30,416 nucleotides of DNA from a virus, in IMG/VR virus record IMGVR_UViG_3300029981_000266, positions 1 through 30,416 of that record; one strand, written 5' to 3'. The notes under the pieces are model-generated. The model ran no database searches. It was not told where the DNA came from and saw only the letters and a list, made by a program, of their open reading frames with translations. The translations under genes and the position numbers were made by a program. Below, in pieces: positions 497 through 28,513 of the stretch. How positions within the stretch are numbered: the first letter of the stretch is position 1; each line of letters opens with the position of its first letter.

Positions 497-709
497 TTAA
501 TCTTTTTTAAAAATTTCAAATATATAGCCAGTTGACGAACTGTAAATCGTTGCCTTTGGTTTATCCATCAACTCTATTTTTCGGTTAGTGAAAGGCATGT
601 CTTTTAGTTCTTCGCTACTTATAGAGGCAGTAATTGACATGTCTTCGGGAATCTTTATGCCCGACATTGCTAAATTTATAGCAAATTGTTCAACTTCGTT
701 TAGTGTCAT
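497..709 (-). CDS. Hypothetical protein, 70 aa
   Basis: This small soluble protein has no family I recognise. The first part looks helical (MTLNEVEQFAINLAMSG), and the C-terminal half looks like short beta strands ending in basic residues. It starts about 32 bp after the terminator that ends the tmRNA gene, and its stop lies 6 bp before the radical SAM start codon. It is therefore the first gene of a short operon with the radical SAM gene. No function is proposed. Confidence 0.6.
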   Translation of the reverse strand: MTLNEVEQFAINLAMSGIKIPEDMSITASISSEELKDMPFTNRKIELMDKPKATIYSSSTGYIFEIFKKD

Positions 710-741
710 AATGTATATTTTTCTTTATTAACTCTGGTGAC

Positions 742-770
742 AAAAATGGGGAGCCTTTTCGCGGCTCCCC
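742..770 (-). terminator. Rho-independent terminator after the tmRNA coding piece
   Basis: Read on the minus strand, GGGGAGCC and GGCTCCCC form a perfect 8-bp GC-rich stem around a 7-nt GCGAAAA loop, followed by ATTTTT. It lies 13 bp past the stop of the tmRNA tag frame, so it ends the tmRNA transcript and probably defines the 3' side of the coding piece before trimming. Confidence 0.9.
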
Positions 771-782
771 TTGGTTCACGTC

Positions 783-830
783 TTATGCTACTGCTCTGAG
801 CGGTGCATTAGAAAAGTTGATTGTTTTGCC
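783..830 (-). other. tmRNA tag-peptide reading frame
   Basis: The frame starts at the resume codon GGC (830-828), encodes GKTINFSNAPLRAVA and stops at TAA (785-783). Its GKT start parallels the Bacillus subtilis tag (A)GKTNSFNQNVALAA. The hydrophobic small-residue end AVA fits a C-terminal degron, although most bacterial tags end in LAA or VAA. The non-templated first alanine would come from the charged tRNA-like domain. The resume codon is inferred from the position in the molecule and the tag ending. Confidence 0.8.
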
Positions 831-893
831 CGTTATAGACAACGACTTTCTCTTTTTACCCTACTTATAACGCTGTCAAAACCAAACAGCCCC

Positions 894-978
894 GTATAAT
901 TGTAACTAACATTCCCGTAGTCTAAGGCATAATCGGAATGCAGTTGCCTTCTGTTAGTTACTCCTCTGGCGAAGGATG
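894..978 (-). other. Intervening segment of the permuted tmRNA
   Basis: This 85-nt stretch joins the CAGCTCCA acceptor end to the GGGGCTG 5' end and must be removed to give a two-piece RNA. It has its own structure: TAACTAACA near 960 is complementary to TGTTAGTTA near 902, and an inner CATTCC can pair with GGAATG, partly competing for the same bases. It holds no ORF. Its length and hairpin agree with the processed loops of known permuted tmRNA genes. Confidence 0.75.
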
Positions 979-1063
979 TGGAGCTGGAGGGAGTCGAACC
1001 CTCGTCCAAACGTATTTCAAATAAACGTCATAGATTGTCGTGTAATATTAATAACCTTGGTAG

Positions 1064-1996
1064 TTATTTTGTGACTTTTATGTCAAGCTTCACACCTTGA
1101 AGTCTTGGATTTTTAGCAATATATTTTGGAGCAATAGAGAACGCCCGTAAACCTGAATCCCAAAGATAACCTTTTTGCTTATGGTTTATTGTGCAACGAC
1201 AGTACGGGTGAACTGGAGAAATTGTCGCCTTATAATCAGCCGCCTTGAGTCCTATGTTATTCCCGTTCGCTATTACATCATCCAATACATAAACTATCGG
1301 TTCGCTATTTGGGTCTTCTGGGTCTGTCAAGTAAAGCTCTTTGCAATGTTTACAAGCTCCTTCATAAACATCAAAATAGACTTCGGAATCAACGCCGTGG
1401 TTCTTTACGATACTTTGAGCTATTCCGGAGTTATACGCTTCGTGTAATAAGTAGTAAGCAATACGCAGCCAATCCCTTTCCCAGTCCTTAGTCGCTTCCC
1501 CAAGTTCCGCTGCTAGAGTACGCCCGCTTTTTCGTAATTCGACAGCCTTCGCCGCCTTATCCTTGATTAACGCCTTTATTTTGAATTGGTTCTTTTGATT
1601 GCCACGAACTATGATATTTGAAGTACCTTGTCTGATACGACTACCCAGCCCACCAATATCATTATATGCTCGGTTCTTGATTTGTTCAAGAGCAAATCTT
1701 TCTTGTTCGGTCAAAGGTATGAAGTTACCAGAACCTAAAAACTTTGTAAACTGCGAGTAATTCAATCCCTTTGCTCTTTTAGAACCTAATGCGTCGGACA
1801 ATATTCCAAAGTAGAATGCATGGTCTATTATACCTTGACTATTCTTATACAAATTTACGTCAATTCCGGAAGCTAGAAGTAACGCTTTTTCGTTAGCCGA
1901 CAGATAATTGTATCCAAGTTGTTTACCCACGAATATGCATTCCCACCTTTTGAGTATTCCGAGTATATCTTGTATTTGGTTATTGTTGAATATCAT
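1064..1996 (-). CDS. Phage Mu gpF-like minor head (head morphogenesis) protein
   Basis: This 310-aa protein ends in the features of the Mu gpF/SPP1 gp7-like head family: a CKHC pair near residues 216-219 and HPYCRCT at about 263-269, a metal-binding-type Cys/His signature. The long helical middle (residues 90-200) is rich in charged residues. Family members are minor head components linked to the portal and to DNA packaging or ejection. Its start overlaps the end of the metalloprotease gene by 4 bp. Downstream the transcript runs into the permuted tmRNA, whose acceptor piece begins within tens of bases of this stop. Confidence 0.8.
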   Translation of the reverse strand: MIFNNNQIQDILGILKRWECIFVGKQLGYNYLSANEKALLLASGIDVNLYKNSQGIIDHAFYFGILSDALGSKRAKGLNYSQFTKFLGSGNFIPLTEQERFALEQIKNRAYNDIGGLGSRIRQGTSNIIVRGNQKNQFKIKALIKDKAAKAVELRKSGRTLAAELGEATKDWERDWLRIAYYLLHEAYNSGIAQSIVKNHGVDSEVYFDVYEGACKHCKELYLTDPEDPNSEPIVYVLDDVIANGNNIGLKAADYKATISPVHPYCRCTINHKQKGYLWDSGLRAFSIAPKYIAKNPRLQGVKLDIKVTK

Positions 1997-2889
1997 TTTT
2001 TGATAGGCTTAATAATTTCGTTGATTAATTTTTTGTACCTCGAATTAATCTTTTTGTCCAATTCTTCGAATACGGTTGGCAATTCCTTTTTCAACCAATC
2101 AGGCGCGATAAAATAATGCATAAAATTTTCTGCAAACACTTCATTGCTCTTGCTAATCTCATAAGGGCTGCTTGCGTGCGTAATGGTTTTAGCAAACCCC
2201 TTGTACCCCTTACTTTCAAAGTGGTCATAATGATGTCCTAATTCATGCACAAACGTATTTGCATCCAATTTGGAAGGCATAGAGATAGTATCTATCAAAT
2301 CATGTCCAGCTATATTTCCAGAGCCGCCGTTGTACTCCCTCAACACCAACTTTAATTTAATATCCCTTGTTATTTTTTCAGCTTCATCGAACGAAATTTC
2401 AATATCTAAATTAACAGGCTGTTCTAAATTTCTTAGTTGATATATCTTCTTAGCGTATTTTATGTAATTGTCAAAATTCAAAAAATCTGTTTTGTGCTTA
2501 ATGTCTTTTAAATTCGCACTTTGTATATAACTATCATCTTTGTCTAATTCATCATAATTAATATCGAATTTAGTTTTTAGCAAATCTTTGTATTTTTGAT
2601 ACTTATCAAGTTTCGGATTTAACGAAATAATATCTATGTACGCTTGAGCTTCATCATTTATTTCGTGTTTCTTAGCAGCGGGTTTCGCATCGCTCTTGCT
2701 GACATTACGCCAATCATACTTCCCTGAAGGAAGCTGTTTCCAGACCCATTTACCGTTCGGATGAATATCTCCCACGTTATGCCCCTTTTCAATGTCGTTT
2801 TCTTGCGCCTTATCGATGTCCTCGTCTTTGGTGTCGACTGCCGCTGATTTAGCGATATACTTTAACACATCCGCAACCGCCCCCGACAA
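1993..2889 (-). CDS. Zincin-type metallopeptidase with N-terminal DWRN module
   Basis: Counting from a TTG at 2889, HELGHH lies at residues 215-220, the HExxH zinc site of metallopeptidases. A downstream NEVFAEN (glutamate near 254) could be the third ligand. Residues 32-62 hold a module, DIEKGHNVGD through GKYDWRN, repeated in the 326-aa protein at 11400. No ATG is available close to the start. The same frame extends up to an ATG at 2979, one base after the preceding stop codon, which is the normal junction here, but a TAA at 2925-2923 interrupts it. The gene therefore either starts at a weak TTG, is read through, or carries a nonsense change. Its place between a lysine-rich protein and the Mu gpF-like protein suggests a virion role, either cell-envelope opening or head maturation. 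Confidence 0.75.
   Translation of the reverse strand: MSGAVADVLKYIAKSAAVDTKDEDIDKAQENDIEKGHNVGDIHPNGKWVWKQLPSGKYDWRNVSKSDAKPAAKKHEINDEAQAYIDIISLNPKLDKYQKYKDLLKTKFDINYDELDKDDSYIQSANLKDIKHKTDFLNFDNYIKYAKKIYQLRNLEQPVNLDIEISFDEAEKITRDIKLKLVLREYNGGSGNIAGHDLIDTISMPSKLDANTFVHELGHHYDHFESKGYKGFAKTITHASSPYEISKSNEVFAENFMHYFIAPDWLKKELPTVFEELDKKINSRYKKLINEIIKPIKK
2708..2797 (-). repeat. Diverged 90-bp repeat encoding the DWRN module, copy 1
   Basis: Aligned without gaps, this stretch matches 12184-12273 at 75 of 90 bases by my count. It encodes the end of DIEKGHNVGD through the DWRN segment in the metallopeptidase gene. Since the DNA itself is still similar, the copies look like a domain duplication or recombination within this genome rather than a distant family resemblance. 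Confidence 0.8.
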
Positions 2890-11399: not shown

Positions 11400-12380
11400 T
11401 TATCTGCGTTTTATTCTATATGATACTGAACCTGAATATTCGTTATCTTCGTAATCATCCCAATCGCCGTCCGATTTTCCTTTCTTCATCAAATCAGAAA
11501 AACTTGTAAACCCTCCTCCGAATGGATTCCACACAGAGGTTGTGTCTACCCAAAATCCTTTTGGCGGAGAAATTAAAGCTTTTGCGGCTGCCTTGCGAGT
11601 TGCATCCGCTACAGTTCCTCTTTTTGAATCATAAGACACGCCCAAGGCAACTATACCCTTGCCTACTTTCTCAGTATAAAATTGATAATTGTTATCGTTT
11701 TGTTTACTGTAGTGGTCATTTATGAGTTTTAATTCTTCTTTGGTAAATGGGTCGTCTGATTTAGGTTTATCGGCTTCTTTTGTTGGTTGCTTCTTGATAA
11801 CGTCCGTATCCGTTTTTGGGGTTGGTTTTGTTGTAGTGCGATGCGATAATATCTCGGCTTCCCGCTTTTTCATTGATTCATATTTTTTAGCGGCAACTGG
11901 GTTTTTGGTTGCAAAGTCAGGAGCATTGACAGGATATTTTTTTCTATAATTAGCTATGTCAACTCTCAACCCTGTATATTCAATTTCTTCTTTATCCGAA
12001 GCTTGAGCTGGCTTGCCTCCGATAGCCTTATCATGATATTGTTTTGAAGACGGGTCGTCTCCGTTTCTATCATCGCTGTCGTCTTGTTTCCCCGCTGAGT
12101 GTGTCTTGTTATCAGGCATATGAACATAAGGTTTGTTTGGGTCTGCATTAGCAGCGGGTTTTGAACCCGTCTTAGCTGCATTTCGCCAATCGTACTTACC
12201 TGATGGAAGTTGAGTCCAAACCCATTTACCGTTGGGGTGAGCGTCTCCCACATTATGACCTTTTTCAATGTCGGTTTCTTCAGCCTTTTCGATGCGGTCT
12301 GAACTTGAAACCACGAACCCCTTCAAGATATTCATCTTGCGGTCGTTTTGCGCCCTTCTAATGTCGTCGTTTATGCTCAT
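11400..12380 (-). CDS. Probable virion protein with leader motif and DWRN module
   Basis: This 326-aa protein has three parts. Residues 1-22 are the leader MSINDDIRRAQNDRKMNILKGF. Residues 39-73 carry DIEKGHNVGD, then HPNGKWVW and LPSGKYDWRN, the module shared with the metallopeptidase at 1993. A hydrophilic linker follows, and then a C-terminal domain with a G-I-V-A-L-G-V-S-Y-D-S-K core. It is 11 bp upstream of the 253-aa leader protein and 2 bp downstream of the exonuclease gene, so it sits at the boundary between replication and virion genes. No enzyme motif is visible. Confidence 0.7.
   Translation of the reverse strand: MSINDDIRRAQNDRKMNILKGFVVSSSDRIEKAEETDIEKGHNVGDAHPNGKWVWTQLPSGKYDWRNAAKTGSKPAANADPNKPYVHMPDNKTHSAGKQDDSDDRNGDDPSSKQYHDKAIGGKPAQASDKEEIEYTGLRVDIANYRKKYPVNAPDFATKNPVAAKKYESMKKREAEILSHRTTTKPTPKTDTDVIKKQPTKEADKPKSDDPFTKEELKLINDHYSKQNDNNYQFYTEKVGKGIVALGVSYDSKRGTVADATRKAAAKALISPPKGFWVDTTSVWNPFGGGFTSFSDLMKKGKSDGDWDDYEDNEYSGSVSYRIKRR
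12184..12273 (-). repeat. Diverged 90-bp repeat encoding the DWRN module, copy 2
   Basis: This is the partner of 2708-2797, with 75 of 90 bases identical in an ungapped alignment. It encodes the same GHNVGD-to-DWRN segment. It follows a leader motif here, whereas in the metallopeptidase it follows a different N-terminus. Confidence 0.8.
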
Positions 12381-18344: not shown

Positions 18345-18375
18345 TTTGTTGTGCGATTTTACTTAATAACGTTGT

Positions 18376-18522
18376 TTACTCTTCAACCTCTTCGACCTTA
18401 GTTTCGTCAACTTCAGTTTTTGCCTTTTCGAGCAATGAATCACTTTGTTCAAATCCGAAGCCTTTCATTATGGCTTGTTTGCGAGCTTCTTGCTCTTGTT
18501 TAATGTCTTCTCCTGCGTACAT
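18376..18522 (-). CDS. Leader-motif mini-protein, 48 aa
   Basis: The protein starts MYAGEDIKQEQEARKQAIMK then GFGFEQSDSLLEKAKTE and ends in an acidic tail. Nearly all of it is the leader motif found at the N-termini of the proteins at 10627 and 11400 (GD-I-R-x-AQ-x-x-R, I-x-KGF, then S-D, EKA), with no body attached. The match across proteins is what supports such a short gene. It lies 4 bp after the 53-aa gene and 31 bp before the glycosyltransferase. It could be a remnant of a larger virion protein or a working peptide. Confidence 0.75.
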   Translation of the reverse strand: MYAGEDIKQEQEARKQAIMKGFGFEQSDSLLEKAKTEVDETKVEEVEE

Positions 18523-18526
18523 AATT

Positions 18527-18688
18527 TTATTTGTTAAGTTTATATTTTTCAGCGGCTTTATCTACCGCATATTTGAATCCTTCAATCACTGGTAATAACG
18601 TTGGGTCTATTGTCACTAATAACTTTTCTAATGCGATACGTTTTGATTTTACGCTCGCTCTATATGCCTCAAATTCTTCGTGTGTCAT
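18527..18688 (-). CDS. Hypothetical protein, 53 aa
   Basis: It starts MTHEEFEAYRASVKSKRIAL and ends KAAEKYKLNK, and is predicted largely helical. Its ATG overlaps the stop of the DUF6527-like gene as ATGA, the standard coupling in this genome, which supports it as a real gene. No family is recognised. Confidence 0.65.
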   Translation of the reverse strand: MTHEEFEAYRASVKSKRIALEKLLVTIDPTLLPVIEGFKYAVDKAAEKYKLNK

Positions 18689-25504: not shown

Positions 25505-26145
25505 CTACCCAATTGTATTTTACGTTGTACTTTGATGAACGACATAGCAGCTCCCCAAGCTTGGTCCGATATTAGTTGCACGCTATTTCCCAAAGCCCAT
25601 ACGTGAGTTGTTATTTCTGAAGTGCAATCTTGAATTGCGTATCTAACTTGACGCTTTACAAGTTGCACTTCTATCGTAAAATTATAATCGTTAATTCGTA
25701 TTACCAAATATTTTAGATTATCTTTATTGTAACCGCCGTTGATTGGGTGATCGTACACTTTCCCTGTGACAAAATGAACTCCCCAAACATCATCTATTGA
25801 ACGAATATGCCTGCATAATTCATCATTAACATCTTTGGTAGGAACTAATGCCACGAAGTTAGGATCCGGCAACCAGTCAGAAATACCTTTGAACATATAA
25901 TTTGGAATTATAACCTTGCCGTGGGTAAAGAGCTGGTCTTTTAAACGGTTGCGTTCTTTGTCAACTTGCAAAGCATGGTTAGCAGAAGCTGACATATCTA
26001 CCCCCCTTTGTATTGCTATTGCTTCTGATTCTTCAAATTTTGAAACTAATAAATGTATCAACTTGCTTTGGTTAACAAGTATCTGGTCTGAGGCTTTTAT
26101 TTCATGCCGGAGTATCCAGCTGGCCAATTGATTTACGATTTTCAT
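25501..26145 (-). CDS. Hypothetical protein, 214 aa
   Basis: The N-terminal half is helical (WILRHEIKASDQILVNQSK, ALQVDKERNRLKDQLF), and the C-terminal half has GGYNKDNLKYLVIRINDYNF then TIEVQLVKRQ, with a TH-x-WAL end. The latter faintly recalls synthetase-fold segments, but the catalytic residues are not placed correctly. I give no function. It overlaps the UDG-like gene by 44 bp, unusually long for this genome, so the true start may be one of the later codons. Confidence 0.6.
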   Translation of the reverse strand: MKIVNQLASWILRHEIKASDQILVNQSKLIHLLVSKFEESEAIAIQRGVDMSASANHALQVDKERNRLKDQLFTHGKVIIPNYMFKGISDWLPDPNFVALVPTKDVNDELCRHIRSIDDVWGVHFVTGKVYDHPINGGYNKDNLKYLVIRINDYNFTIEVQLVKRQVRYAIQDCTSEITTHVWALGNSVQLISDQAWGAAMSFIKVQRKIQLGR

Positions 26146-26527
26146 TTACGGTTTTATTTATGATTTCTATTTGTACATTGCTAAGAGAACGACTTGCCGG
26201 ATGAGGCACGAATATCATCGGTCGGTTTAAAGCGGTTATTGTATCAAGATACCTGTTAACAGTTTCCTTTGCTTGATTACCGCAAACTAATATCATATCA
26301 AACTTGCCTAGCTTCAAGATAACCTTTTCAAAATGTTCATAGTTCGGTTTTGGCTTGCCTTTTGCAGTGATTGTCATTTCGTTTGTGGTGTTGCAAAAGA
26401 AAGCTTGATTATCTTCGCCTATCATTTTCTGAATTGTCCTTGCGCTCTTGTTGTGAGGGTTTGGGATAAATACCGTTGGCAAGTCTCTATCTCCCCAAGC
26501 GTTCTGAAGTATGCAAATTATTTTCAT
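26102..26527 (-). CDS. Uracil-DNA glycosylase superfamily-like protein (tentative)
   Basis: The 141-aa protein opens IICILQNAWG, has FDMILVCGNQAKETV near residue 80 and ends in FVPHPASRSLS near 113. A first strand with N-A-W, a central hydrophobic strand followed by G-N-x-A, and a HP-x-S-R-x-L-S loop match the layout of UDG-superfamily folds, with HPAS like the DNA-intercalation or catalytic His loop. It is shorter than classical UDG and lacks the GQDPYH motif, so activity is uncertain. It is the first gene after the structured leader at 26552. Confidence 0.5.
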   Translation of the reverse strand: MKIICILQNAWGDRDLPTVFIPNPHNKSARTIQKMIGEDNQAFFCNTTNEMTITAKGKPKPNYEHFEKVILKLGKFDMILVCGNQAKETVNRYLDTITALNRPMIFVPHPASRSLSNVQIEIINKTVNENRKSIGQLDTPA

Positions 26528-26551
26528 ATCTGGTTAGTTTTATTTTACAAG

Positions 26552-26672
26552 AAACATTCAGCAGAGTCGAGGGTTTTCTTTGTTCCTTAGCGCGCTCCCC
26601 ATTTCGAACCTACGACGCAGTAAAAGTGCGACATTGGTTCTGTTATCTTGCAAACTCCTCTGCTGAATGTTT
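26552..26672 (-). ncRNA. Structured RNA closed by a 15-bp inverted repeat, probable 5' leader
   Basis: AAACATTCAGCAGAG at 26552-26566 and CTCTGCTGAATGTTT at 26658-26672 are perfect reverse complements enclosing 91 nt. Inside, on the minus strand, GAACC...GGTTC encloses CGCA-CTTTTAC-TGCG, and a GAG/CTC step extends the outer stem. GGTTC can also pair with a later GGAAC, so two folds compete. A promoter-like pair lies upstream and the UDG-like start codon 25 bp downstream. It may be a riboswitch-like leader or an independent RNA. It is not a normal tRNA. Confidence 0.6.
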
Positions 26673-26729
26673 AATATCTTTCTGTCGGTATGAATAACGT
26701 TGGGGAGTCGGGGAAGGTATTTCATCAAC

Positions 26730-26763
26730 GAAAGATACAAGTTTCCTCTGGACTCCTTCAAAA
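26730..26763 (-). promoter_or_regulatory. Bacteroidota-type promoter upstream of the structured leader
   Basis: TTTTG (26763-26759) and TATCTTTC (26737-26730) are separated by 21 nt. The second matches the -7 box TAnnTTTG at all but the last base and is nearly the same as in the two repeat promoters. It follows the stop of the 129-aa gene by about 12 bp. Transcription would start near 26723, giving a leader of about 196 nt before the UDG-like ATG. Confidence 0.6.
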
Positions 26764-26775
26764 TCTTCCAATCTT

Positions 26776-27165
26776 CTATTCTTTGTTTCTCTCCTCTCGT
26801 ATACGCAGGCTCGCTTCGCTCGCTTTAACCCCCTTTAAATCCCCCTTGCTCCAATGCCATCTATCAAACAATTTTAAGCTGTTGTCAAAAGCATACGAAC
26901 CTTGGTTTTGCATTAAGAATGATATCAATGTTTCATCCCTTGGATTGTTCGGCTTCAACGTTAAAGAAGTGCTTTCTCCAAAACAAACAACTTTCAGCGG
27001 CGAATTTTGTACTCTGAAAAATCCAGCTGATGTTGGCTTCAATTGAACTATTTTACCGCCCCTTTTAACAGGCATATCTTTGAATGCTATATCGCAATGG
27101 TTCACAATATCGGGGAATATGACAGGGAAGGTGAAACCAACGGTCTCAAAAACAATGTATTTCAT
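26776..27165 (-). CDS. Hypothetical protein, 129 aa
   Basis: The N-terminal 60 residues are beta-rich and hydrophobic (YIVFETVGFTFPVIFPDIVNH, then RGGKIVQLKPTSAGFF). The C-terminal end is a basic-acidic helix. I recognise no family. It may contain a small barrel. It ends just before the promoter at 26730-26763, and its own upstream spacer (27166-27223, 58 bp) shows no clear promoter box. Confidence 0.6.
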   Translation of the reverse strand: MKYIVFETVGFTFPVIFPDIVNHCDIAFKDMPVKRGGKIVQLKPTSAGFFRVQNSPLKVVCFGESTSLTLKPNNPRDETLISFLMQNQGSYAFDNSLKLFDRWHWSKGDLKGVKASEASLRIREERNKE

Positions 27166-28202: not shown

Positions 28203-28513
28203 TTGTATAAGTCTATTACCATTGTTCTATGGTCGTTAATACCTTTGTTATCTGTGTTAGGGTGGTACGTTGGGTCTATTGATACTACTACAACCCTCTT
28301 GCATTTATACGGAAGTTTGATTTGCTTCCAATTCCCATTCAAAACATAATTAATATGTAAATCAAACACCTCGTGTTTGACAAGTTTGCCGCTGTGATAA
28401 ACATATTCATTTTCACCTCGGCTGTGAAGCGGAACGACTATTCTTTTTACACGCTCAACTGAAAGTGAAAGATTCACTTCAAACTCCAATCCTGCAAATC
28501 TAATTGTTTTCAT
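28199..28513 (-). CDS. Hypothetical protein, 104 aa
   Basis: The sequence is beta-rich (IRFAGLEFEVNLSLSVERVK, DLHINYVLNGNWKQIKLP, RVVVVSIDPTYHPN). I recognise no family. Its ATG abuts the 71-aa gene's stop and its stop overlaps the next start. Confidence 0.6.
   Translation of the reverse strand: MKTIRFAGLEFEVNLSLSVERVKRIVVPLHSRGENEYVYHSGKLVKHEVFDLHINYVLNGNWKQIKLPYKCKRVVVVSIDPTYHPNTDNKGINDHRTMVIDLYK

Follow-up and report, generated by a model that had tools for sequence, protein, structure and literature searches.

The window, i.e., the whole stretch of DNA analysed here (a virus record of 30416 bases), contains a perfect 15-bp inverted repeat in a non-coding spacer ahead of a gene with a predicted uracil-DNA-glycosylase (UDG) fold. 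We tentatively propose that this element is an orphan, lineage-specific intercistronic RNA stem that acts as a passive mRNA stability or processing element, because the repeat is unique in the window, rare in Markov copies of it, non-coding, predicted to pair with high probability, and placed between same-strand genes with no terminator. This explanation is favoured only slightly over neutral DNA, since the leader is absent in relatives, the element is found in the same virus only, the folding score of the leader is matched elsewhere and the two strands fold equally well. By itself the element is of little importance; were it transcribed, it would add another lineage-specific mRNA stem, located in the accessory region of a phage. 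The case shows how a striking inverted repeat with inner tRNA-like words can mimic a regulatory RNA when the outer stem alone is unusual.

The inverted repeat and its non-coding spacer

The window is the reversed first 30.4 kb of a 46-kb contig (the two agree letter for letter over the overlap checked), and its minus-strand genes include those for the terminase large subunit, portal, helicase and exonuclease. The spacer holding the element (26528..26775, minus strand, 248 nt) is flanked by two minus-strand genes, and neither a terminator-like site nor an intrinsic terminator was found between them. Codon scoring detected no coding signal in the spacer, where no frame reaches a gene-typical score. 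A 67-aa open reading frame crossing the repeat (26558-26761, minus strand) was rejected as a gene, its codon score being -0.09 compared with 0.13-0.34 for most genes and 0.04 for the lowest; no relatives of this frame were found outside the same virus. A further gap (340 nt, 18345-18684), also between same-strand genes, contains no called gene; in the window only the tmRNA gap is larger.

The two arms of the repeat are complementary over all 15 positions and enclose a 91-nt interior, exactly as described in the initial annotation. In the minus-strand RNA they form a closing stem (P1), with the 5' arm at 26658..26672 and the 3' arm at 26552..26566. When perfect repeats of at least 13 bp within 250 nt were searched for, this was the sole case in the window, and repeats of at least 15 bp appeared in 2.3% of first-order Markov copies of the window (n=300). 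Related phage sequence (251 kb) contained a single such repeat, a hairpin with a 16-nt loop. Only 2507 of the 30416 bases of the window (8%) are non-coding and the repeat sits inside this share, so that a chance repeat in the non-coding part is less likely still. The Markov frequency of about 2%, together with this location, indicates that the stem is probably not due to chance. A serious alternative is that the spacer consists of non-coding DNA that was gained recently or is decaying, in which the repeat would be a chance event or a functionless relic. The Markov frequency applies per window, and the initial annotation had selected the striking features of the window, both of which are in agreement with such a neutral origin; however, a perfect 15-bp repeat of mixed composition in the small non-coding part would be unlikely (approximately 0.2% if chance is spread evenly).

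Folding of the 121-nt RNA (123 nt folded) gave -40 kcal/mol with z = -3.9 for the minus strand and z = -3.6 for the plus strand, and since these values are similar the fold does not indicate the strand. P1 alone, closed over an empty loop, accounts for approximately -20 kcal/mol. In the 257-nt leader context, the pair probability of P1 is 0.8-1.0 and approximately 14 nt preceding the start codon are unpaired. Stable stem-loops in 5' UTRs and between cistrons occur in bacterial and phage mRNAs, as illustrated by the ompA 5' stem and the RNase III sites between T7 early genes. The element shares with them a long stem without mismatches, located in non-coding sequence ahead of a gene and followed by a predicted unstructured stretch for ribosome loading, whereas it differs by its 91-nt loop and its lack of conservation.

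In the passive-stem explanation, the spacer between the small upstream gene and the UDG-like gene would have been acquired in this phage lineage. If transcribed, it would form a 15-bp long-range stem round a mostly unstructured 91-nt interior, leaving open an A/U-rich stretch from about 19 to 6 nt ahead of the start codon as a possible loading site for ribosomes. The stem would most likely be passive, the mRNA being stabilised or processed there and the UDG-like gene uncoupled from the preceding gene.

Interior folding, tRNA resemblance and promoter-like pair

The initial annotation proposed that alternative pairings in the interior make the leader a switching regulatory RNA, possibly a tRNA mimic or remnant. 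One of these pairings, between GAACC (26640-26636) and GGTTC (26610-26606), is in the sequence, as is the CGCA-CTTTTAC-TGCG hairpin (26630-26616). The resulting inner hairpin GAACC...CGCA-CTTTTAC-TGCG...GGTTC (26606..26640, minus strand) is predicted with high probability, but its stability is that of shuffled sequence; compared with dinucleotide shuffles, the whole 91-nt interior gave z = +0.1, with 253 of 500 shuffles equally good. This random-like interior is also what would be expected from neutral DNA. The other pairing, of GGTTC with the downstream GGAAC (26586-26582), consists of four pairs only (GTTC/GAAC, then G-A), its probability is approximately 0 and it costs approximately 6 kcal/mol, so that the competing folds, and with them a two-state switch, are unsupported.

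Folding of the whole leader region gave z values of approximately -2.5 to -3, which are equalled by three other gene starts in the window, at 28513 (-2.48), 20662 (-2.75) and 8846 (-2.7). The long fold also showed an outer pairing of CTCCCCAACGTT (near 26706) with AACGC-TTGGGGAG, which lies in the coding region, but this pairing was rejected as not significant: once the element was removed, z was -1.2 and 48 of 400 shuffles were as good.

The suggestion of a tRNA mimic comes from the presence of GGTTCGAA and the 7-nt CTTTTAC loop, short pieces like those of tRNA and tmRNA-like RNAs. Unlike these RNAs, the element has no cloverleaf, T-stem partner or acceptor stem. As read from the sequence, a T-stem would need the GTAGG ahead of GGTTCGAA to pair with the ATGGGG after it, which is not possible. 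ARAGORN found no tRNA at the element, and Rfam gave no tRNA, tmRNA or leader family there, at the gathering threshold or with E up to 10, permissive thresholds yielding chance matches only. The tRNA resemblance of the interior thus appears to be one of short words only. Riboswitches and attenuators have in common with the element a long predicted leader ahead of a gene, whereas the element has no competing fold of comparable energy, terminator, Rfam family or conservation. The candidate of a conserved cis-regulatory leader RNA was rejected, as no conserved structure, no terminator and no pair of mutually exclusive folds close in energy were found. Taken together with the homologous genes that have no leader (see below), these data make a switching leader or tRNA mimic the least probable of the explanations considered, and both readings are disfavoured.

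A promoter-like pair had also been reported at 26730-26763, giving a long leader. It is indeed present as TTTG-N21-TATCTTTC (26730..26762, minus strand), one base off the -33/-7 consensus of Bacteroidota, the presumed host type. However, no sigma-70-like pair was found at 26730-26762, and the motif occurs at chance frequency, with 25 loose matches on the minus strand against approximately 20 expected, most of them within genes. Its function as a promoter is possible. Together with the closed terminal stem, this pair, 58 nt upstream, would be consistent with a free-standing small RNA of approximately 121 nt with both ends held together by P1, which would be either transcribed from a promoter of its own or released from the mRNA by cleavage. 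Such an RNA is nevertheless unlikely: a terminator-like site is absent, the folding of the interior does not exceed chance, Rfam gives no match, and no 12-mers are shared with other parts of the 46-kb contig in either orientation. It is more doubtful still that it would be a phage-specific small RNA of a family outside Rfam, controlling the UDG-like gene or acting in trans.

Flanking genes and distribution of the element

The downstream gene (26102..26527, minus strand) encodes 141 aa, and the AlphaFold model of its product has a pLDDT of 82. With Foldseek alone, none of the PDB matches was significant, and nothing above cut-off was found in Pfam or NCBIfam. When the best 1000 Foldseek chains were aligned with VIA-align, ranks 1-37 were UDG-superfamily structures, with Z of 7.4-9.5 over up to 130 of the 141 residues, the highest Z being reached over 129. 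Because the model aligns best to these structures, the "UDG-like" label of the initial annotation is supported at the level of the predicted fold, and for the fold only the gene can be assigned to the uracil-DNA glycosylase superfamily. A search with the UDG alignment found no bacterial homolog.

The upstream gene (26776..27165, minus strand) encodes 129 aa, compared with 96 aa for its relative in L065. It matches the phrog_3988 family over residues 1-94, while residues 95-129 lie outside the match, as if the gene had been fused to new DNA. Both this tail, beyond residue 94, and the spacer look as if this lineage had acquired them, which would suit the neutral explanation. Within the same tail, outside the family match, a G-rich stretch, GGGGGATTTAAAGGGGGTTAAAGCGAGCGAAGCGAGCC (26808-26845, minus strand), resembles intergenic repeat DNA that was joined to the reading frame.

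Homologs of the downstream gene with 57-59% identity are present in L059 (a 355-kb record), L060 (217-kb) and L062/L061 (29-kb and 18.5-kb). L059 and L060 have nearly identical upstream sequences and are close kin, as are L061 and L062, so that they represent two independent contexts only. In L059, L060 and L062, the upstream open reading frame ends between 4 nt before and 4 nt inside the UDG-like gene, and no long inverted repeat was found upstream of it. Comparison of these upstream regions shows that the homologous loci do not keep the element, which speaks against a regulatory leader conserved ahead of the UDG-like gene. By BLAST and covariance model, the spacer is absent from related records. 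The structural and replication genes are well conserved in those records, and the terminase shares 40-80% identity beyond the same virus. Two further genes of the window (1993-2889 and 11400-12380, minus strand) have in common a segment of approximately 26 aa, which corresponds to the same positions in L024 (569-646) and in L029 (2181-2300) and suggests a shared small domain.

To follow the element itself, viral contigs were scanned with patterns for the paired arms, the inner 23-mer and a loosened hairpin; it was found in only two other contigs, of the same virus and with identical sequence. A covariance model built from one sequence type (R1) and run over 21 related virus records matched the same virus only, plus one chance-level match (E 0.43) in a 355-kb record. 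No paired arms were found in 84,980 genomes, bacterial genomes included, and DNA similarity to phages and plasmids was at chance level only. A search of the literature on such leaders gave nothing relevant. This lack of any homolog in viral, plasmid, phage and bacterial collections beyond the same virus is again in agreement with neutral DNA.

At the DNA level the repeat is just as apparent, and its arms are approximately 106 bp apart, near ten helical turns, as could be expected for two inverted protein-binding sites or for a miniature mobile element of 121 bp with the arms as its terminal repeats. We consider a DNA-level role very unlikely, since the window has no further exact copy of an arm, matches with 3 mismatches are near chance, the paired arms are nowhere else in the 84,980 genomes or the viral collection, and no target-site duplication was seen by eye (flanks GATATT / CTTGTA). 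A miniature inverted-repeat mobile element was rejected as a candidate, this locus being the only one in viral contigs, and the mobile-element reading is disfavoured.

A permuted tmRNA gene in the same window

Elsewhere in the window, a permuted tmRNA gene of the two-piece type was identified at 692-1070 (minus strand) by a match to RF04321 above gathering. It has an intact-looking tRNA-like domain and the tag GKTINFSNAPLRAVA. Permuted tmRNA genes were also observed in related records, at 212-580 in L006, 139-507 in L015, 971-1218 in L016 and 127-585 in L017 (all on the plus strand); L006 and L015 are the same contig, and the predicted tags in L006/L015 and in L017 are of the form GK...LRAxx. 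Permuted tmRNA in phages is already known from Melnitz (PMC9004378), and the phage carrying it here appears to belong to a different phage group. A phage-borne permuted tmRNA is more noteworthy than the 15-bp stem. The 3' part of the standard tmRNA model, RF00023, gave a further match immediately ahead of the permuted gene, at 976-1300 (minus strand) in the window (31 bits, below gathering) and at 1-305 in L006 (49 bits), and the tmRNA may therefore extend further upstream than the ARAGORN call.
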